The notes beneath the pieces are model-generated. The model was not told the DNA's origin. It saw only the letters and a list, made by a program, of their open reading frames with translations, and ran no database searches. A stretch of DNA of 46,279 nucleotides from the IMG/VR virus record IMGVR_UViG_3300005265_000032, positions 1 to 46,279 of that record; one strand, given 5' to 3'. The DNA is from a virus. The position numbers and the translations under genes are program-made. This document shows, in pieces, positions 8,522 through 24,333 of the stretch; the first letter of the stretch is position 1; every line of letters begins with the position of its first letter.

Positions 8522-8977
8522 CTAATCTTTTCTCTTTTGCTCGTGGATTTCGATAATTTGAATTTCATGATGATGGTTGACTGCTTTTTCTTCAGGCTCG
8601 CCGATAAGTTGCAAGGCAAGCTTAATGGTGGCATTCAGAGTGGCATGATCTTCGATGGGAAACTTTGGGTCGCCATTGGGTAGAAAAGCAGTGGCGATTC
8701 TTTTTTCCGTTTCCATAAGCCACTTAGCCTTACGATCGATGTTGGCTTTCGTGGTCTTCTTATCGATGCCCGCTGCAACAGCTTTGTCCTTGATTGCAAC
8801 GCGCTGCTGCCAGTGGAACCATTTAGACCAGTTTTGAAGCGTGCGGAGCGAGGGTTGCGTTTCTGACGCAATATCGATGAAATGTTGGCGCAACTTAGCA
8901 AGGCTGCGCCCTGCGCCCATAGCATAATAAGCTTCAAAAGCTGCTGCTTGCTCCGCTGTTTCCTGGTGTTGCGTCAT
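8522..8977 (-). CDS. terS: Terminase small subunit
   Basis: This 151-residue protein lies directly upstream of terL. An N-terminal helix-turn-helix-like part (ending near LRTLQNWSKW) would recognise the packaging site, followed by a helical middle and a charged tail, as in phage small terminases. GGAGGTCTTGAAC precedes ATG 8977, which overlaps the stop of the TBP gene (ATGA). The call rests on position, size and the helix-turn-helix pattern rather than on strong motifs. Confidence 0.7.
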   Translation of the reverse strand: MTQHQETAEQAAAFEAYYAMGAGRSLAKLRQHFIDIASETQPSLRTLQNWSKWFHWQQRVAIKDKAVAAGIDKKTTKANIDRKAKWLMETEKRIATAFLPNGDPKFPIEDHATLNATIKLALQLIGEPEEKAVNHHHEIQIIEIHEQKRKD

Positions 8978-9603
8978 GTCTTGTTCAAGACCTCCGGATG
9001 CTCAAGGCTAATTTTAAAAAGAAGGGAAGAGAGTTTAAGAGCGTGAAATTCGAGTTCGGGAAGCGACCGGAAACCAGTGAGTGTTATCTTCCCAGAGGGA
9101 AATATGAGTGCGGTATAGTGAGGTTTGTGCTCATGAAAGTAAAAAGTGATACAATTGACGAGATGCTCGTGGCTGTCCTTCTCAGAAAAAAGAGGAGAGG
9201 GGTCATAAGAACAGTTAGGTAGATAAGTGGCAAGTTCAGAAAGATTAAAAGAATAGAAAAAATCAGAGAAACCTACAATGTTAAGAACTTCGTATCGATC
9301 AGCAAGTTTGAGATCGAAATCAGGAAGGAATTTGGCGGATAGCCAAGTAAAAGAATCATCAAGTTCATCAAGTGAGCGAGCAGCACGGGACATAACTGTT
9401 CCAGTGCGAAAGATGGAGAACTTAACACGGTTATGAGGAATGAAGATGCGCGAAAGAACGGCTTGATGATCAAACGGGTGCTTAGATTCGAGTGCGGAGA
9501 GAGAGAAAGGCGGGACGAGTTGAGATTTAGCGATGATGTTGGTGACTTCTATCTCAGGTTTCTCCGCCTTCTTCACGCTTCTTGGTTGGAGTTGAGGGGG
9601 CAT
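8974..9603 (-). CDS. Virus-encoded TATA-binding protein (divergent)
   Basis: TBP binds TATA boxes and recruits TFB and RNA polymerase in archaea. This product of about 209 residues has the two tandem TBP repeats. The first begins EIEVTNIIAKS and contains VKFSIFRTGTVMSR; the second begins YEVLNIVGFSD and contains HYTALIFPSGKITLTG. The second match is very close to the family signature (T-LIF-SGK--TG--S). The repeats are far from each other and from typical host TBPs. I choose ATG 9603 because a TATA element lies about 30 bp upstream; the longer frame to 9645 only translates that promoter. It overlaps terS by four bases and may direct transcription of late genes. Confidence 0.82.
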   Translation of the reverse strand: MPPQLQPRSVKKAEKPEIEVTNIIAKSQLVPPFSLSALESKHPFDHQAVLSRIFIPHNRVKFSIFRTGTVMSRAARSLDELDDSFTWLSAKFLPDFDLKLADRYEVLNIVGFSDFFYSFNLSELATYLPNCSYDPSPLFSEKDSHEHLVNCITFYFHEHKPHYTALIFPSGKITLTGFRSLPELEFHALKLSSLLFKISLEHPEVLNKT

Positions 9604-9626
9604 GCCTAGTAGTAGTACATAGAGGC

Positions 9627-9640
9627 ATATAAAATATATA
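9627..9640 (-). promoter_or_regulatory. TATA region of the TBP/terminase operon
   Basis: The minus strand has TATATATTTTATATG centred about 30 bp before ATG 9603. This placement supports a leaderless transcript beginning at or near that codon and argues against the upstream in-frame ATG. Confidence 0.6.
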
Positions 9641-9821
9641 GTCATATAGAGTTTTCACTTGCGGGATCTATGCTTGTCTCTTCACTATTCTTCTCTCTCT
9701 TTTGCCCCATCCATCTTACTGTATTAGATTGTATTACATTGTGCTTGTGACGTAGTACACTGTGTTGCATTGTGATACATGTTTGAATCGGAAATAGAAA
9801 ACAACAGAAGCAACAGCGAAG

Positions 9822-9872
9822 CCGCTCCTGCGGAGCGGCGCATGTAATAACGAAGCCGCTCCTGCGGAGCGG
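9822..9872. repeat. Two tandem copies of the 17-bp hairpin repeat
   Basis: Copies at 9822-9838 and 9856-9872 read CCGCTCCTGCGGAGCGG, a perfect 7-bp stem with a TGC loop, separated by CGCATGTAATAACGAAG. The spacing is 34 bp. The same unit occurs five times at 42265-42409 with a 32-bp period. Confidence 0.9.
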
Positions 9873-9892
9873 CGCATGTAATAACGAACAAT

Positions 9893-10169: not shown

Positions 10170-10400
10170 CAGGATTGGGCGGTCCAAACAATATTAAATA
10201 ACGCCTGTTCTTATACGATCCATCTATCTTGAGATACCGCCCCGCCCGGGAGTTTCACCCGGCACTACCGCGCATCGAGCGCTACTCCGCGTGGTCTCGG
10301 TCGACATTGCGCCTGCGGGAATCATGATAGAAGCGAATCGCCAGCCTGTCATTGCCCCTCCTTTTATGCTTGAGTTTTATTATATATAAAATTCTCAATA

Positions 10401-10478
10401 GCGTTAATACCACCTCATTCTGTATAACGTTGATACTTTCTCGATCTGTATAACGTTGATACTTTCTCATCCGTAGCA
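10401..10478. repeat. Iteron cluster A (three 26-bp units)
   Basis: Units start at 10401, 10427 and 10453 with an exact 26-bp period. The core is ACGTTGATACTTTCTCGATC followed by TGTATA. The joint between units, GTATAACGTTGATAC, is nearly palindromic and could bind a dimeric protein once per period. Related clusters lie at 13642, 42428 and 42816. Confidence 0.9.
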
Positions 10479-13596: not shown

Positions 13597-13641
13597 GCAT
13601 GTTGGGTCTTTCCCTTGAGGGAAGCTCCGATCGGGTGAGTG

Positions 13642-13780
13642 ACGTTGATACATTTCGATCTATATAGCGTTAATACTTTCTCGATCTGTATAGCGTTAAT
13701 ACTTTCTCGATCTGTATAACGTTGATACCATCTCGCTCTGTATAAGGTTGATACTTTCTCATCCTGTATAGCGTTTTTTT
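13642..13780. repeat. Iteron cluster B (five units plus a partial)
   Basis: Units start at 13642, 13667, 13693, 13719, 13745 and 13771, all 26 bp apart except the first (25). The consensus matches cluster A. The array overlaps the last codons of the Hjc-like gene, whose C-terminal Tyr-Thr-Gly is encoded by repeat sequence. Confidence 0.9.
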
Positions 13781-14061
13781 TCATAGATGATGTCGAAGCA
13801 AATCTCATTCTCTCCATTTACACGTGCATTGAGTACTCGGGACCCGCATTGCCTGCCAAGTGCCTGCAATCGCGATCTGGTGTATTGGCGGAGTTTTCCA
13901 TGTCCATTACCACGAGCGCGGATGAACGTTACTTTGCCGTTTTTCATTGCGATGAGGTCAATTGGCTCTCGATCTTCCGAGTCTGCGTATGGTGCTACTT
14001 GGATAACATGCAGCCCCTGCTTTTCTTGGTTGCGCTTAACGCGCTTGGTGAAGTTTTTCAT
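13759..14061 (-). CDS. Hjc/VRR-NUC-like PD-(D/E)XK nuclease
   Basis: The product of about 100 residues has the order expected for archaeal Holliday-junction resolvase-like nucleases: a basic helix (NFTKRVKRNQEKQG), a strand, an acidic DREPIDLIAMKNGKVTFIRA segment, then a helix (QYTRSRLQALGRQCG) and a last strand. The usual Glu-X-Lys triplet is not obvious (FIRAR in its place), so it may be inactive or divergent. ATG 14061 is one base after the previous stop. Its tail runs into iteron DNA. Confidence 0.5.
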   Translation of the reverse strand: MKNFTKRVKRNQEKQGLHVIQVAPYADSEDREPIDLIAMKNGKVTFIRARGNGHGKLRQYTRSRLQALGRQCGSRVLNARVNGENEICFDIIYEKKRYTG

Positions 14062-14062
14062 T

Positions 14063-14242
14063 TTACCGTATTCCAAACCTAACTACCTTTTTCTCTTCAT
14101 CCCAGTACGCCCTGATGTTCAATCTGCCTTCTCGCATGAGCTGCAGCATCTGCTCGTTGCGACTGTAGCGTTCCGCCTGGGTTAGCGTTATTTCTTTTAG
14201 CCTCCCCGATTCCAAGCCGAGTTTGATCTCTGCGAGTTTCAT
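14063..14242 (-). CDS. Hypothetical protein (59 aa)
   Basis: ATG 14242 overlaps the IscB stop by one base. The helical product contains LTQAERYSRNEQMLQLMREG and ends with a strand-forming YWDEEKKVVRFGI. Because the IscB element abuts it, its original promoter and perhaps its first codons may have been altered by the insertion. No family is recognised. Confidence 0.5.
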   Translation of the reverse strand: MKLAEIKLGLESGRLKEITLTQAERYSRNEQMLQLMREGRLNIRAYWDEEKKVVRFGIR

Positions 14243-15516
14243 CACACATGGGCAAGGATACCTCGTGCTTCAGCACGGGAAGGAATTGCCCTTCTCACCT
14301 CCTCTATTCTTCCTCTTGCTCTTTCTACAAGTGTCAGTTTCTTATAACTCACAGAATCGCTTACCTTCTCTCCATCAATTGTTTTTAGATTAAAGTGACC
14401 ACTGCTTCTCAATCCGAATATGTAGCATTTTGCTTTTCCATACATCACCTTATCAAACCTCCGGAATCCTTTTACTTCCTTTACTGTATTTCGCTTCCTT
14501 CTGCCGCCTTTTAGCAGGTTCGCCTTGAACAAACTCCTGTTCTGCCTTCTTACCTGCTTGCCCTTATAGACATATCCTGCTCGTTCCTGCCCCGTTCCCC
14601 CCGCGATAACAAACGCATCGTTTACGTGCGACTTCTCTATCCCAAGCTTCGTTCTCCAGTATTTTGTTATGCTGCCGTAAGTCCAGCCGCAGCCAAGCAT
14701 ATTCACCAGCTTCCAGCGAATGATATTCATAAACGCCGTTGCCTTCAGAGATTGTTTTGCCTGTTTCTGTATCTCCGGATAGCCGAACTCTTCGGCTGTT
14801 CTATTACCTTTTTCTTGGTTGCACTCGTGGCAAGATATTGTCAGGTTTGAGACTCTATCACTGCCTCCTCGTGACTTCGGTATGATGTGCTCTATTTCTA
14901 ACGGTACATCTGTCTTACCGCAATATGCGCATTTTCTATGGTATTTCTCCAACAAATACTCTCTTACTTCATAGCCTTGCAATTCGCCTTGCTGATATTC
15001 AACACCACTTATCTCTGGGCGCTGCATCTTCTGCGTATCAGAGCTCGCTACTTCCACGATTATCTTCGTTATCGGTAGTATTTGCTTTAGTCGTTCTATC
15101 AATTTGGCATGGCTTTGCAGCTTGTGCTCCAGCGAAGGTGCTAACCAACCGTTTTTTCTACCGCGATTGACAAATCTCGGTTTTCTATGCCATTTCCTGT
15201 TTCTTCTATCTCTTCGATACGCTCTCCTCTTCTCCAATAACCTCTTTATATCTGTTCTTAACTCCAATTCGCCTGCTATAAGTTCCCTGCTTGCTGTCAC
15301 CGCACTGTACCCGACTGTCTTGTAGCCTGCGTCTATCCCAAGTGTTATGTCCTGCTTGTAGCCGCTTGAGCCGTAGGGTAATTGTATGGTGAATGGCGTC
15401 AGGCTCACTATTTTCGCTTTTCCTTGTTTCAACAATCTTCTTGCTTTTCCTGCCGTGCATGGCATTAACTGCTTGCCATGTTTGTTCAGTACGAACACTA
15501 AAATGGAGTGTTCCAC
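14242..15516 (-). CDS. iscB: IscB RNA-guided endonuclease
   Basis: IscB is the Cas9-like nuclease of OMEGA systems. From GTG 15516 the protein has 424 residues, the family size. It starts with the PLMP-type domain (VFVLNKHGKQLMPC), then RuvC-I GIDAGYKTVG (Asp62), an Arg-rich bridge helix, RuvC-II IIVEVA (Glu155), an HNH domain with CAYC, EIEHIIP (His210) and CHEC, and RuvC-III HVNDAFVIA (Asp300). All catalytic residues are present. The frame is open to ATG 15690, but that part carries the omega RNA stem-loops, so the GTG (or GTG 15498) is the likelier start. No TnpA transposase is nearby. The element sits inside a viral gene cluster. Confidence 0.9.
   Translation of the reverse strand: MEHSILVFVLNKHGKQLMPCTAGKARRLLKQGKAKIVSLTPFTIQLPYGSSGYKQDITLGIDAGYKTVGYSAVTASRELIAGELELRTDIKRLLEKRRAYRRDRRNRKWHRKPRFVNRGRKNGWLAPSLEHKLQSHAKLIERLKQILPITKIIVEVASSDTQKMQRPEISGVEYQQGELQGYEVREYLLEKYHRKCAYCGKTDVPLEIEHIIPKSRGGSDRVSNLTISCHECNQEKGNRTAEEFGYPEIQKQAKQSLKATAFMNIIRWKLVNMLGCGWTYGSITKYWRTKLGIEKSHVNDAFVIAGGTGQERAGYVYKGKQVRRQNRSLFKANLLKGGRRKRNTVKEVKGFRRFDKVMYGKAKCYIFGLRSSGHFNLKTIDGEKVSDSVSYKKLTLVERARGRIEEVRRAIPSRAEARGILAHV
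14248..14280 (-). mobile_element. Right-end hairpin of the IscB element
   Basis: The last IscB codons read CGTGC-TGAA-GCACG on the minus strand, a perfect stem with a TGAA loop, followed by GAGGTATCCTTGCCC. Such a sub-terminal hairpin with a conserved flank is typical of IS200/IS605-type right ends, here translated as the C-terminus of IscB. Confidence 0.65.
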
Positions 15517-15529
15517 CTGTTCCCGTGTT

Positions 15530-15690
15530 TTTTGCTCCTCGGAGTTGTTGGAAAACGTTTTTAAATCCGCCACACCGCAGCTACCTCTCGCTGCTTTTAA
15601 TGACGGATCACAGTTGCTACGGGCTGGAGCAGCACCCGTAGATGTGTATGTATTTCTTCTTTCCAACTGCTGCGTATCCTCTTCTTGCAT
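15530..15690 (-). ncRNA. Putative omega RNA (HEARO-type) of IscB
   Basis: Directly upstream of the IscB GTG the minus strand folds into ordered stem-loops. CTACGGG/CCCGTAG (15641-15617) encloses an 11-base loop. Next comes an outer stem ATCCG/CGGAT (15608-15565) enclosing GCAGC/GCTGC (15594-15577). Position and order fit the guide-carrying RNA encoded before iscB. The guide should lie at its 5' end, roughly 15650-15720. The coding frame through this part has unusual composition (TSTGAAPARSN), which supports a non-coding role. Confidence 0.65.
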
Positions 15691-15719
15691 TTACGCCTCC
15701 TGATCACGTAGAGGCTTGC

Positions 15720-15818
15720 TTGCTTAACGGCAAACCTCACCCTTCAGGGCGGGGTACGTGATTTCCTCTTTGCTTACTTAACGGCAAGCCTCACCCTTCA
15801 GGGCGGGGTACGTGACTT
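15720..15818 (-). mobile_element. Left end of the IscB element with a tandem hairpin duplication
   Basis: Two near-identical copies (15727-15762 and 15781-15816, 54 bp apart) read on the minus strand TCACGTACCCCGCCC-TGAA-GGGTGAGG, then TTGCCGTTAAG. Each forms a hairpin with a TGAA loop like the right end. The outer copy supplies the last codons and the stop of the upstream gene. Confidence 0.7.
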
Positions 15819-18081: not shown

Positions 18082-18263
18082 TTCTCGAACACCTCATCTT
18101 GGCACTTTTGGCAGAGCCCTGAAACTTCATGCTCGCGCATTGAAAGTTCATCACGGAATTCTGTCATTGTATCTATCTTCTTACCACAAAAAGGGCATCT
18201 ACCTTCTTTTACACTGTCAACTTCTTTTCCAAGCCCTGCTTTACGCGTTATCTTTTCATTCAT
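18078..18263 (-). CDS. Small zinc-finger protein (61 aa)
   Basis: CPFC (residues 23-26) and CQKC (51-54) form a CXXC-CXXC zinc knuckle with a helical charged stretch between. The gene overlaps the preceding ribbon-helix-helix gene and the next zinc-ribbon gene by a few bases each, indicating translational coupling. Confidence 0.6.
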   Translation of the reverse strand: MNEKITRKAGLGKEVDSVKEGRCPFCGKKIDTMTEFRDELSMREHEVSGLCQKCQDEVFEK

Positions 18264-18417
18264 TTTGATTCACCTCGCGGCTTTCTATTTCGCCTTGCGA
18301 CTTTTCCTTTAGGAATGTATCTAATGCTGTATCTAAATTAGAGACTTTTTGCTCTTCTTTGTATCTCCTCAGGATACCATACGCTTCTTCACTAATCACA
18401 ACTAGCATTTTCTTCAT
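18256..18417 (-). CDS. Short ribbon-helix-helix-type protein (53 aa)
   Basis: The product begins MKKMLVVISEEAYGILRRYK and continues with a helix and an acidic tail, the size of an antitoxin-like CopG regulator. ATG 18417 lies about 28 bp below a TATA box, so the message is probably leaderless. Its upstream region carries a 28-bp element that is repeated before the ribbon-helix-helix gene at 20401, suggesting both are controlled by the same factor. Confidence 0.6.
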   Translation of the reverse strand: MKKMLVVISEEAYGILRRYKEEQKVSNLDTALDTFLKEKSQGEIESREVNQNE

Positions 18418-18439: not shown

Positions 18440-18453
18440 GTATAAAAGCTTTT
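18440..18453 (-). promoter_or_regulatory. BRE/TATA promoter of the 53-residue regulator
   Basis: AAAAGCTTTTATAC on the minus strand is placed about 28 bp before ATG 18417. It belongs to the AAAGCTT class also seen at 7091 and 20421. Confidence 0.65.
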
Positions 18454-18458
18454 CGGTT

Positions 18459-18486
18459 TTTGTTTTTATGTTAGCCAAATGGGTAA
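18459..18486 (-). promoter_or_regulatory. Shared 28-bp upstream element, copy 1
   Basis: The minus strand begins TTACCCATTTGGCTAACATA and continues with AAAACAAA. Copy 2 lies at 20444-20472 with a single extra base. Both copies sit just upstream of a BRE/TATA box, so an operator or activator site is the simplest reading. Confidence 0.75.
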
Positions 18487-19098
18487 CTAAAAATATTTAG
18501 TTAAGTCAAGTTGCTTATTTTTTTCAATCTTATCTGTTTCATTTAAATCTAATTGATAGAAGTGTTCATCTCCTGCATACTTCTTTATATACTTGATATG
18601 GACTAACCTATTATGCGTGTGATAAAGACCATTTGTGCTTACAATGCTTTCTCTTAAGTCATCAATATTGTTTTCAAACCATATTCTCAATGCTTTTGTT
18701 AATGGAAAGAAAAGGAGTTCTAACACTTCAGTTGCTTTTTCGTTTTGCCCATCGGTATTCACTGTGCCGTATGAGATATAGCCTGCTTGTAATGTATAGA
18801 ACCACCCTTTATGTCCTAATTCTTTGTTGCTCCATGTTTCAAACGGGTATGTTTTCCAACCTAAATAGTCTATTCGCCTTGTCTTTTCATCTATTGAAAA
18901 GCGTGTGGTATCTGGTCTTGTTACTACTACGTCAGTACCAAAACTGCGTTGTGCTTTTTCGTTTTTATCGAAGCGGTCTATTTTTATGCTTTTGCCAAAT
19001 ATTTTCTTGTAATAATTATTAAAACTCGCCTTTACCTCTTCGGTGTTGAATTTTTCATTACTTTTGAGCCATTCGTAATCTTTTTCGTTATGTATCAA
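18487..19098 (-). CDS. PD-(D/E)XK-like nuclease paired with the methyltransferase
   Basis: This 203-residue protein has Asp56 in SFGTDVVV, then Asp70-Glu71-Lys72 in RFSIDEKTRR, matching a PD-(D/E)XK catalytic core, followed by GHKGWFYTLQAGYISYG as in many Mrr- or restriction-like nucleases. The start is TTG 19098, overlapping the methyltransferase stop; no Met occurs inside the protein, which supports this unusual start. The tight coupling to a DNA methyltransferase suggests a restriction-modification or self/non-self discrimination role. The cleavage target is unknown. Confidence 0.6.
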   Translation of the reverse strand: MIHNEKDYEWLKSNEKFNTEEVKASFNNYYKKIFGKSIKIDRFDKNEKAQRSFGTDVVVTRPDTTRFSIDEKTRRIDYLGWKTYPFETWSNKELGHKGWFYTLQAGYISYGTVNTDGQNEKATEVLELLFFPLTKALRIWFENNIDDLRESIVSTNGLYHTHNRLVHIKYIKKYAGDEHFYQLDLNETDKIEKNKQLDLTKYF

Positions 19099-20285
19099 TT
19101 TCTAATATCCCCTTTAAACGTTTCCCAGTTTTCACGTTCAGGAAAGAATATTTGTAAGTAGGGGGGATATGATGCCCTTTCTATTATTTCGTATATCTTC
19201 TCTGGTTTCTTACTATGCTCAGCTCTCGGCGCTTCAAAAGAAGTTGGTATATCTTTTACGCGTGTAGTTAGCTTACCGGAAACAAAAAATAAACAGTGCT
19301 CTGTATTATTCCTGAAGTATGAACCCAACCCGATTGACGGCTTTATCCAAGTTAGCGCTGTTTTATATGTAAATCCCCAGTGTATTCCTAATTTTAATGC
19401 TTCATAAAGAAAATTATTTGTAGTCCAGAGGTAAAGATGGCATCCTTCTTTATCTACGTATCTTTGTATATCAAATGCCTTTAATTCATCGATACTCAGC
19501 ACAGCATATTTTGGTTTGCCTCTTCCTGCCAGCGATAAATGCTCATAGTCCCAGGGTGGGTCTATTAAAATTGTCTTGAAAACACCTTCAATCTTTTTTT
19601 GTGGTATTTGATTAATTAAGCGTTTCTCGTCTTCTTTTTGCTTCGTAATTCTTTTCATCTGACTGTAGGCATTGTGAGTCGTGATTTTATCTTCTTGCCA
19701 CTGTTTCTTTATCGGCTCTGGCGCTTCTTGATAGACTTTTTTCGCTTTTTCGTATTGCCTGCCTGAGCCGAAGCCTACATTTTTTGCTACTTTGTCGCGG
19801 GTTGCACCCTCTTCTTCCCGTATGGGAAAATTTTCCATATCGGGAATCTTATCCCCTTTTTTTAAAGTTGCTAATTTTCTCTTCTCCGCCTTCAGTCTTT
19901 CAATCGGTTCTAACTCCAACCCGCATTTGACCTTCTGATAATCATTCAAATGCCTTCTCAGTAAATTATCCTTGATCAGCGCCTCCTTTATCTGCCACTC
20001 CTCTTTTAAATCCGTTCTTATGATGCAAGGTACTTTTATGCCCAGTTCTTTCGCTATTGCGCTCCTTCTATGACCTGATATAATTAGATAATCAGCGCCT
20101 TGCGAGATAACTTGTAGCGGATCTTGAATGCCTCTGTGTTCAATATCCGCTTTCAATGTTTCATATTCTTCCGTGCTTGTTTCACCAAAGAGTTCTTCAC
20201 TTAGATTATGCTCTTGTAGCTGCTTGGGGTCCAATTCTACTATTGGTTTATCCCTTAGCAGAAAGATTGTCTGTTCACTGCTCAT
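19095..20285 (-). CDS. ParB-domain / MT-A70 adenine methyltransferase fusion
   Basis: Residues about 10-115 form a ParB/Srx-like domain with ISGHRRSAIAKELG (Arg pair at 73-74), followed by a helical ParB middle part. Residues about 230-390 are an MT-A70-type N6-adenine methyltransferase with catalytic DPPW (242-245), LYLWTTNN and an SYPPYLQIFF end. Such fusions occur in phages and mobile elements and would methylate DNA adenine at chosen sites. The gene overlaps both the upstream ribbon-helix-helix gene (ATGA) and the downstream nuclease gene (TTGA), forming a three-gene unit under one TATA promoter. Confidence 0.85.
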   Translation of the reverse strand: MSSEQTIFLLRDKPIVELDPKQLQEHNLSEELFGETSTEEYETLKADIEHRGIQDPLQVISQGADYLIISGHRRSAIAKELGIKVPCIIRTDLKEEWQIKEALIKDNLLRRHLNDYQKVKCGLELEPIERLKAEKRKLATLKKGDKIPDMENFPIREEEGATRDKVAKNVGFGSGRQYEKAKKVYQEAPEPIKKQWQEDKITTHNAYSQMKRITKQKEDEKRLINQIPQKKIEGVFKTILIDPPWDYEHLSLAGRGKPKYAVLSIDELKAFDIQRYVDKEGCHLYLWTTNNFLYEALKLGIHWGFTYKTALTWIKPSIGLGSYFRNNTEHCLFFVSGKLTTRVKDIPTSFEAPRAEHSKKPEKIYEIIERASYPPYLQIFFPERENWETFKGDIRN

Positions 20286-20401
20286 TTCTTATTCCTCTCT
20301 AGTAAACTCCTTACAACACTATCCAACGACTTATGTCCTTCTTCTCGTTTTATCGCTTCCAACTTTGCCTTTACAAATTCGCTTATTTCTACATTGACCA
20401 T
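20282..20401 (-). CDS. Ribbon-helix-helix regulator (39 aa)
   Basis: From ATG 20401 the product reads MVNVEISEFVKAKLEAIKRE and ends SVVRSLLERNKK, a compact CopG-like fold. The TATA box about 25 bp upstream makes this start leaderless; the open frame further upstream crosses promoter and operator DNA. It probably represses its own promoter and so the methyltransferase-nuclease pair. Confidence 0.65.
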   Translation of the reverse strand: MVNVEISEFVKAKLEAIKREEGHKSLDSVVRSLLERNKK

Positions 20402-20420
20402 ATATCTAAGATAGTTTGAG

Positions 20421-20435
20421 AGCATATAAGCTTTT
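20421..20435 (-). promoter_or_regulatory. BRE/TATA promoter of the methyltransferase-nuclease unit
   Basis: CAAAAGCTTATATGC on the minus strand lies about 25 bp before ATG 20401. Confidence 0.7.
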
Positions 20436-20443
20436 GTCTTTTT

Positions 20444-20472
20444 CTTTGTTTTTATGTTAGCCAAATGGGTAA
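20444..20472 (-). promoter_or_regulatory. Shared 28-bp upstream element, copy 2
   Basis: Same sequence as 18459-18486 except for one extra base (GGG instead of GG before CTAACATA). A partial copy (TTAGCCAAA) follows at about 20479-20488. Confidence 0.75.
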
Positions 20473-20491
20473 GAGACGTTAGCCAAAACGC

Positions 20492-20814
<323 letters not shown>

Positions 20815-20822
20815 GCCAAAAC

Positions 20823-20907
20823 TGAGATGCATCTCAAGAATGAGATAGCCCAAAATTGAGGTAGACCTCAGAAATGAGAAGGGATGCCAAAATTGAGATG
20901 TACCCTA
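20823..20907. repeat. Three dyads of TGAGATGCATCTCA type
   Basis: TGAGATGCATCTCA (20823-20836) is a perfect palindrome, TGAGGTAGACCTCA (20857-20870) is nearly perfect, and a degenerate form sits at 20894-20907. Units are 34-37 bp apart and share flanks (CCAAAA before, AATGAGA after). Confidence 0.7.
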
Positions 20908-20955
20908 AAAATGAGATAGCTCAGATCGAGATAATCTTACGAACGAGAAGTTTGA

Positions 20956-21263
20956 TCATCTCCTTCGCACTTTCAGGTCTGTGAGATCCTCCAGCTTAAG
21001 ATTAAATCGAGAAGGCACCTCACTTGCTTCTTCAGATTGGGGATACATTTCCAAATAAGCCTTCGTTATCGCTCGATTTACATCTTGGGTTGTTGGTATT
21101 CTGCTATCGCTGAAATCGCTTTCAAGCGCTAAGCAAACATGCGCAATTATGAGATCGCCTTCTGTTGCGTTGCTTACTACACGATATTATCCATATGCAT
21201 TTCTAATAACGAATCTCGCACCTGGCTATTTATAAAGCGTCTTAACTTGTCGTCAGATATCAT
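20956..21263 (-). pseudogene. Frameshifted small gene (would be about 101 aa)
   Basis: ATG 21263 overlaps the preceding stop (ATGA) and reads 28 codons to TAG at 21177. The continuation (starting VVSNATEGDLIIAHVCLALE) is open in another frame down to TGA 20956. Adding one T in the AATATC near 21185 restores a single frame through MDN-YRVVSN. No family is recognised. A recent deletion, a read error or programmed slippage are the options. Confidence 0.6.
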
Positions 21264-23272: not shown

Positions 23273-23466
23273 CTCCCTTCCCTTTTTTTCTCTCCTGCAG
23301 CAACCACTTTTGGACCCTTTCTTGCGGGCTTCGGGTCTTTGCCCAGTCGGAACGGATATAGTGCGCAGTCTGATACTGTGCAGAGCCTAACCTCCTCTTT
23401 GGAGCCGCCGCAGCAATCTATACAGTGCTCTCTGATTGCGTGCAGTATCCGCTTTTTAGTTGTCAT
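23269..23466 (-). CDS. Cys-rich zinc-binding protein of a common phage type
   Basis: The pattern IREHCIDCCGGSKEEVRLC followed by VSDCALYPFRLGKDP is characteristic of small proteins found beside RuvC-like and replication genes in many phages. Four or five Cys would bind zinc. The basic tail could contact nucleic acid. Function is unproven. Confidence 0.65.
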   Translation of the reverse strand: MTTKKRILHAIREHCIDCCGGSKEEVRLCTVSDCALYPFRLGKDPKPARKGPKVVAAGEKKREGR

Positions 23467-24064
23467 TTTTCAACATCCACTTCAATTCCTCTATCTCCTC
23501 TTCTGTATAATTGTGACCTTTTAGCGTAGATATTAATGCTTCATCTATTCCTACGTCTATTCTTTCGTTGTGTCTCCCCCCTTCCCCATGTCGTCGCCTT
23601 GCAAACTCCGCAATTAGCACCGCATCCACGATCCCCTGGTGTGGCTTCTTTGCTCTTTCTGTCGCGAGCAGATTAACATCTGGGAACAAGCTCTGGCATA
23701 TCTGCAGTGCTTGCACTTTTGTGTTGCCTTTGCGCCCTGAAATGCCGAACTCCTTCTGCCACACCTGAGCTCTGATGACTTCATGCGGGATAGCGAAATC
23801 CGTGAGACACTGTTTAAGCGCACCAAACCCATAGCCGGTGCTGAACATTGAAGTTACGCCTTGTTTTGGCATTGCATGTTGCTCTTCGAGAATTGCATAG
23901 CACTCGGTACCTTCAAAGGAATAGAAGAATCGCGCCAGATCGAGATGATTGTAAGTTCTCTTCTTGCCCTGCAGCGTGGTCGGGATTACAGACGTTTCAA
24001 CGCTATCTTGATACATGATTGCAAAACCGCCATGAAGCCCTGGATCTATGCCGATATATATCAT
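23456..24064 (-). CDS. RuvC-like Holliday-junction resolvase
   Basis: RNase H-fold endonuclease that would resolve four-way junctions before packaging. Family landmarks: IYIGIDPGLHGG with the first Asp, AILEEQHAMPKQG with the Glu, KPHQGIVDAVLIAEF with the last Asp. ATG 24064 overlaps the previous stop (ATGA), so the longer open frame to 24148 is not used. The roughly 202-residue length is close to RuvC plus a short C-terminal extension (EEEIEELKWML). Confidence 0.8.
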   Translation of the reverse strand: MIYIGIDPGLHGGFAIMYQDSVETSVIPTTLQGKKRTYNHLDLARFFYSFEGTECYAILEEQHAMPKQGVTSMFSTGYGFGALKQCLTDFAIPHEVIRAQVWQKEFGISGRKGNTKVQALQICQSLFPDVNLLATERAKKPHQGIVDAVLIAEFARRRHGEGGRHNERIDVGIDEALISTLKGHNYTEEEIEELKWMLKNDN

Positions 24065-24333
24065 AACAAGACGCTCACGAGGAAGCAAGCTATCGCGCTT
24101 ACGACTATCCCAAGTACAAAAGCCGCTCTTGTAGCCTTTACTTGCCATCTGAGTTCTGACTGAAGCCGTGCGATTTTTGCTTTATCCTCATTGACCTTCG
24201 CTTCCTTTTTTTTGAAGAGCACGAGGATTGCCTCGCTGGCAAGTTCTTTCATTGGAATCCCGAGTTTCTTTGCTTTCTCTGCGAGGAGCATATGAGATTC
24301 CTGAGAGAGACGCACATTAAATCCTTTGCTCAT
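24061..24333 (-). CDS. Ribbon-helix-helix-like protein with a C-terminal membrane helix
   Basis: Residues 3-30 (FNVRLSQESHMLLAEKAKK) look like a ribbon-helix-helix or HicB-like start, a charged coiled stretch follows, and residues 70-90 (AFVLGIVVSAIACFLVSVLL) form one membrane helix. DNA-binding-like and membrane parts in 90 residues suggest tethering of DNA or of partners to the membrane; this is inference. Confidence 0.5.
   Translation of the reverse strand: MSKGFNVRLSQESHMLLAEKAKKLGIPMKELASEAILVLFKKKEAKVNEDKAKIARLQSELRWQVKATRAAFVLGIVVSAIACFLVSVLL

Follow-up and report, generated by a model that had tools for sequence, protein, structure and literature searches.

The components of the locus described here are already known separately. 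Fusions of ParB-CTPase-fold domains to MT-A70 adenine methyltransferases are reported in a survey to be enriched in archaea (PNAS 2025, PMC12704722); nicking ParB-methylases have been described, with Bce_0392 cited as a fusion of ParB to an adenine methylase (PMC5512222); and restriction-modification (R-M) is on record for archaeal tailed viruses, some of which carry methylase-restriction endonuclease pairs for which degradation of host DNA has been proposed (PMC8651126). Here we analyze a 46,279-bp IMG/VR virus record (hereafter, the window) that encodes a methylase with the same ParB and MT-A70 domain fusion as in the survey, and the same combination of ParB and adenine methylase as in Bce_0392, and next to it a nuclease. 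As in the archaeal tailed-virus R-M, methylase and nuclease are both virus-borne, and an attack on host or rival DNA can be proposed.

The three-gene unit and its viral context

Judging by the recognizable genes for the portal and terminase, and for the head protease and major head protein, the window is an archaeal tailed virus. On the minus strand, three genes follow in a row, overlapping as in the original prediction and at its coordinates, by 4 nt each, and a second regulator-like gene lies beyond them:

20282-20401, minus strand: small ribbon-helix-helix (RHH)-like regulator, 39 aa, ATG at 20401, overlapping the methyltransferase gene (VAPB_antitox match; beta-helix-helix by eye)
19095-20285, minus strand: ParB_N domain, HTH-like linker and MT-A70 adenine methyltransferase, 396 aa (Pfam, PHROGs and PDB matches; residue alignment)
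18487-19098, minus strand: PD-(D/E)XK-like nuclease, 203 aa, TTG start (relatives, alignment, leave-one-out profile, fold of a relative)
18490-18513, minus strand: nuclease C-terminal octamer QLDLTKYF, which fits the strict PIP-box (PCNA-binding) consensus
18256-18417, minus strand: second small RHH-like gene, neighbor of the unit, 53 aa from the ATG at 18417, under the second 28-bp repeat and a TATA box (18441-18448)

The RHH-like gene and the methyltransferase start share ATGA, and the methyltransferase stop and the nuclease start share TTGA. By sequence criteria, the three genes are not chance ORFs: curated or domain-like matches back two of them, and other genomes conserve the third beside the same kind of gene. 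The small RHH-like regulator that had been proposed is compatible with the beta-helix-helix pattern and with a match to Pfam VAPB_antitox that stays below the cut-off (E = 0.0015; 19.7 bits against 27.9). A search for a VapBC toxin-antitoxin partner gave no PIN hit in Pfam, the next genes being those for the methylase and the nuclease. The second RHH-like protein is weakly similar to the first (E = 0.02).

The middle gene had been taken to encode an adenine methyltransferase with a ParB-like domain, and both domains score above their Pfam cut-offs, ParB_N at residues 37-105 (E = 5.2e-6; 26.9 bits against 26.3) and MT-A70 at residues 236-372 (E = 1.7e-17; 64.3 bits against 23.9). The PHROGs ParB-like profiles cover residues 26-227, and the region between the two domains is consistent with a ParB-type HTH. 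Matches in the PDB include ParB proteins (E = 5e-5 to 2e-4) as well as METTL3/METTL4-like proteins. The catalytic-type motif DPPW is intact at residues 242-245 and is invariant in the alignment with the homologs from loci L024 and L030 (see below). The ParB NTP-binding boxes (GxRR, ENxxR) are kept as GHRR (box II) and DNLLRRHLN (box III), with GHRR and DNLLRR aligning with GERR and ENLQR/ENIQR.

Our leading reading, with a probability of roughly 0.45, is that the unit is a virus-encoded mark-and-cut, that is, R-M-like, module with an autoregulated promoter of its own. In this reading, the MT-A70 domain would add N6-methyl-adenine to viral DNA, presumably at a specific motif, and the N-terminal ParB-type NTP-binding domain would load the methylase on DNA in cis. 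The translationally coupled PD-(D/E)XK nuclease, if methylation-sensitive, would cut unmarked DNA, be it the host chromosome or rival elements, and the RHH protein would repress the unit via a 28-bp repeat and/or a set of palindromes.

The window further encodes, at 8974-9645 (minus strand), a TATA-binding-protein (TBP)-domain protein, in which a single TBP domain follows about 117 residues of no known domain. Its homologs adjoin ParB-MT-A70-like and terminase genes in L025 and L026, two contigs from the same order as a Methanosarcinales MAG; both contigs share the TBP-like and the ParB-MT-A70-like proteins, the latter with a degenerate methylase motif. In these proteins of related archaeal viruses (L025:1883-3037 and L026:641-2002), DPPW is lost (DLPI and DLSN among the two), and they are possibly methylases turned into DNA-binding regulators. 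The virus also carries an IscB gene (RRXRR and HNH; 14242-15690, minus strand) with an Rfam HEARO (omega) RNA (120 bits; 15527-15762, minus strand). The nearest genome relatives of this IscB, in Methanosarcinales MAGs, are 70% identical, and the nearest relatives found come from Methanosarcinales, Methanolliviera and Thermoplasmatota MAGs. Because the TBP-like and ParB-MT-A70-like proteins and the IscB relatives occur in those lineages, the host is likely methanogen- or ANME-like; a capsid-protein search found no near relative of the whole virus.

Two kinds of tandem repeats were observed in the window. Those of 26 bp (CTGTATAACGTTGATACTTTCTCGAT-like) occupy four intergenic places (10393-10472, 13633-13790, 42394-42499 and 42782-42887) and look origin- or regulator-like; those of 32 bp (CCGCTCCTGYGGAGCGGCGCATGTAAACGAAG), with a hairpin, are at 9824-9887 and 42233-42424.

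The nuclease family and its pairing with methylases

The claim that the third gene encodes a PD-(D/E)XK-like nuclease translated from TTG began as a guess and was later backed by relatives and a fold model. TTG is the plausible start because the 203-aa ORF has no internal Met. The protein has no match in Pfam, PHROGs, NCBIfam, PADLOC or the PDB, the known restriction endonuclease and R-M models of PADLOC, NCBIfam and Pfam included, and direct searches of viral contigs, genome contigs, phages, plasmids and the PDB gave no relative. The nuclease therefore seemed to be an orphan until the proteins of one archaeal phylum (392 genomes) were searched, which yielded a 206-aa relative in genome G335 (E = 2.7e-5 for a single genome; E = 2e-9 in the pairwise comparison). 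Profile searches added relatives in genomes G085 and G132 and in 7 of 398 Bacillota genomes, and a later one, ten IMG/VR phage contigs with members of the family. A profile built without the window sequence detects the window ORF with E = 4e-18, against 0.09 for the best decoy when every window ORF and its reversal were scored, a comparison that is partly circular in that the members were recruited by profiles that included the window sequence. A probe made from the consensus of another phage nuclease family led nowhere.

The window nuclease contains the active site D56-x13-D70-E71-K72. In the alignment of 11 sequences, D56 is invariant and K72 nearly so; E87, S90 and G98 likewise are invariant or nearly so, most members have D or E two residues before K72, and Y110 is listed with these as a marked residue of the window protein. 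One alignment (A6) moves the D70-E71-K72 motif by one residue. Six of the 11 members match phrog_13596 (function unknown), a phage family that thus gains a probable PD-(D/E)XK assignment. The phrog_13596/NOV_C-like phage PD-(D/E)XK proteins and the window nuclease belong to the same homologous family; phrog_13596 is not matched by the window protein, however, which differs in its DEK active site, its longer C-terminus and its PIP-like tail.

AlphaFold modeling of the family member L060 from an eight-row alignment gave a confident structure (pLDDT 82, pTM 0.80); the single-sequence model of the window nuclease itself (pLDDT 33) was left unused. The VIA-align matches of L060 are mostly PD-(D/E)XK proteins, namely, the Eco15I/NhoI domain (Z = 9.5/8.9, the former the highest), I-Ssp6803I, RecU, Hjc, HinP1I, PvuII, MspI and the fusellovirus nuclease D212. 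Foldseek matches of the model in the PDB are weak (best E = 0.0099, to D212, and nothing below 0.001), and those in BFVD are mostly uncharacterized phage proteins, with one NO VEIN C-terminal-like protein and one putative endonuclease. The PD-(D/E)XK fold is thus supported by modeling for the family and is carried over to the window protein by homology, so that the PD-(D/E)XK core, the lack of which in a nuclease model would have spoken against the original prediction, is predicted in the one confident model, that of the relative L060.

PIP boxes follow the consensus Q-x-x-I/L/M-x-x-aromatic-aromatic, and QLDLTKYF is the only strict match among the 65 putative genes (13,769 aa). The probability of a strict match at the C-terminus is 1.35e-4 given the composition, for a motif that was noticed post hoc and with P uncorrected for looking. 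The L024 homolog has a related QMSLFDF near its C-terminus, and the bacterial family members were found to have no PIP motif, which is therefore not a family-wide trait. If real, the PIP-like tail would connect DNA cutting by the virus to the replication clamp of archaea.

The tail suggests a role at the replication fork and so argues against mark-and-cut, as does the presence of Holliday junction resolvases among the best structural matches, the archaeal Hjc (Z = 8.1) and RecU (Z = 7.6-8.4), with scores similar to those of restriction enzymes. The nuclease could then be a viral replication or recombination enzyme, Hjc/RecU-like or flap/branch-cutting, that host PCNA recruits to forks via the PIP motif located exactly at its C-terminus; the methylase would mark or position viral DNA, and the two would be co-expressed for their common action on replicating viral DNA, without being restriction partners. 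This alternative, the main rival and in our view somewhat unlikely, draws on the location of family members between the genes for DNA polymerase and a RecA-like protein in IMG/VR phages L054 and L056 and beside primase/terminase genes in L046 and L049. It does not account, however, for a coupling that recurs with methylases of more than one class; the window already encodes a RuvC-like protein (assigned by eye) at 23456-24148; the bacterial members lack the PIP motif; and, the similar predicted fold notwithstanding, the window nuclease has no sequence match to Hjc or RecU, and restriction enzymes fit the L060 model equally well.

The mark-and-cut reading draws on the retention of D56 and D70-x-K72, on the match of the family model to PD-(D/E)XK restriction enzymes and on the recurrence of the pair. 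A ParB-methylase gene directly upstream of, and overlapping, the nuclease gene is present in five loci: the window (4-nt overlap), L024 in G335 (14 nt), L030 in G085 (8 nt), and L047 and L051 in G850 (14 and 29 nt, respectively), the latter four having been found via the nuclease alone. The nuclease partner is constant whereas the methylase class varies, being MT-A70 in L024 and L030 and of the DPPY type in L047 and L051, and the pairing spans unrelated archaea and bacteria. In L031, a further member of the family, the neighbor is a methylase of the D12 class (Dam type), which likewise favors mark-and-cut, and so does the finding that the nuclease is not a neighbor of the two ParB-MT-A70 proteins with a lost DPPW (L025, L026) or of DPPY-type methylases without a ParB domain (0 of 6 loci). 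Nor does a nuclease of this family adjoin L032-L034, ParB-MT-A70-type proteins of bacterial phages.

Methanoculleus virus L4768/Blf4 encodes a possible analog, gp52-gp53 (L037:2983-4759), in which the gene for a ParB and DPPY methylase is overlapped by that for a 189-aa protein. We did not count it as a further pair, gp53 being not detectably related to the nuclease.

The nuclease family is not consistently tied to methylases, and this, together with the lack of a match to any R-M database model, is evidence against mark-and-cut. Most of the other members (L023, L046, L048-L050, L052, L053 and those in IMG/VR phages) have no adjacent methylase and are found near genes for primase, terminase and DNA polymerase. 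Given these many methylase-free members and that the methylase-adjacent ones do not cluster in the nuclease tree, the link has been made or lost several times. Of the predicted R-M module, the functional unit is supported by the overlapping order in four other loci; R-M is possible and, since methylase-free members lie near polymerase, primase or terminase genes, it is the leading reading only. The host-genome attack and the ParB domain that picks or slides to sites, also part of the prediction, are inferred.

The control region

Upstream of the unit, 20402-21259 is a stretch of about 850 bp without a convincing gene; besides palindromes, it contains a long (AG)n run near 20640-20690 and, near 20820-20940, TCTCAATTTTGG-like iterations. 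The control elements, including one beyond the nuclease gene, are as follows; the 28-bp repeat and the palindrome cluster, like the PIP motif, had no place in the original prediction:

20490-20820, no strand assigned: palindrome cluster sharing CGTATATACG, with cores at 20496, 20517, 20697, 20711 and 20802, and including the 22-bp GCAAAACGTATATACGTTTTGC
20445-20472, minus strand: 28-bp exact repeat (family D18), copy 1 (minus-strand sequence TTACCCATTTGGCTAACATAAAAACAAA), preceding the BRE/TATA of the unit
20423-20430, minus strand: CTTATATG, a candidate TATA box read directly from the sequence, about 25 nt upstream of the RHH ATG
18459-18486, minus strand: 28-bp exact repeat, copy 2, directly past the nuclease stop and ahead of the next small RHH-like gene's promoter

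The TATA box was called under the archaeal promoter rule, and its spacing of about 25 nt to the ATG suggests that the transcript of the unit is leaderless. The core of the 28-bp repeat has only two copies at up to 3 mismatches (0.08 expected); it contains an imperfect dyad, TTASCC-N4-GGSTAA, and a third, partial copy lies 22 bp away, so that dyad and partial copy look like an operator. We also considered the repeats as the ends of an inserted cassette, for which no near relative with an empty site was found; a duplicated promoter/operator is the simpler explanation because both copies precede a BRE/TATA and an RHH-like gene. In viral contigs, the repeat core has 4 exact matches, about the chance estimate, and no nuclease was detected among the ORFs of L002-L005.

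Early anti-defense genes of archaeal viruses are described as having shared BRE/TATA regulatory sequences and sometimes HTH or RHH proteins (PMC11065993). The resemblance of the 28-bp repeat to such shared sequences fits the possibility that the methylase acts on its own, as an anti-restriction enzyme that shields viral DNA from host restriction or as a regulator that marks DNA, and that the nuclease, another early gene of the same anti-defense operon, is useful independently of it, for example in host-DNA degradation. Stand-alone viral methylases are common (PMC8651126), and the window is depleted as if under host restriction, with 21 GGCC sites found against 100 expected and 20 CTAG sites against 80, which suggests such pressure on the virus. 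An adenine methylase cannot protect GGCC, however, and the start-stop overlaps and the recurrence of the pair argue for a closer coupling, so that we deem this explanation unlikely. Palindrome counts across the window did not reveal the methylase motif, CAATTG being neutral.

CGTATATACG is present in five copies within 316 bp directly upstream of the unit and nowhere else in the 46 kb (mean in shuffles, 0.01). The palindromes could be RHH operators, promoter elements or parS-like ParB loading sites. The last possibility, along with the kept box II and III residues and the citation of Bce_0392 as a non-specific nicking enzyme (PMC5512222), would accommodate a ParB domain that itself has a nicking or NTP-dependent activity, the pair being a modified partition or copy-control device that loads at the palindrome cluster. 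No ParA gene was identified, and the upstream stretches examined at L024, L030, L047 and L051 have no comparable palindrome, which makes this the least probable of the explanations. Mark-and-cut might, in turn, take a clamp-guided form, a very unlikely elaboration: the ParB-methylase would load at CGTATATACG, slide and mark viral DNA in cis, and the nuclease would ride PCNA via the PIP motif and cut unmarked, newly replicated DNA, making up a self/non-self system. If true, restriction would be coupled to replication, and modification to an NTP-gated clamp.

Comparison with known systems

The window differs from each of the described systems in one or more parts. The survey of ParB-MT-A70 fusions, in its accessible text, names no nuclease partner, overlapping operon or target (PMC12704722); for Bce_0392, the accessible citing text mentions no separate nuclease gene and does not state the MT-A70 class (PMC5512222); and, compared with the archaeal tailed-virus R-M (PMC8651126), the window methylase has a ParB domain and its nuclease comes from a family that is often methylase-free. 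As far as we found, the coupled ParB-methylase/nuclease pair is new, with no earlier report in the open-access literature searched. The ParB-MT-A70 fusions, enriched in archaea and without a known role, thereby gain a concrete partner in one unannotated nuclease family, and the repeated coupling points to a restriction-like system whose sites of methylation may be under the control of a ParB-type NTP switch.
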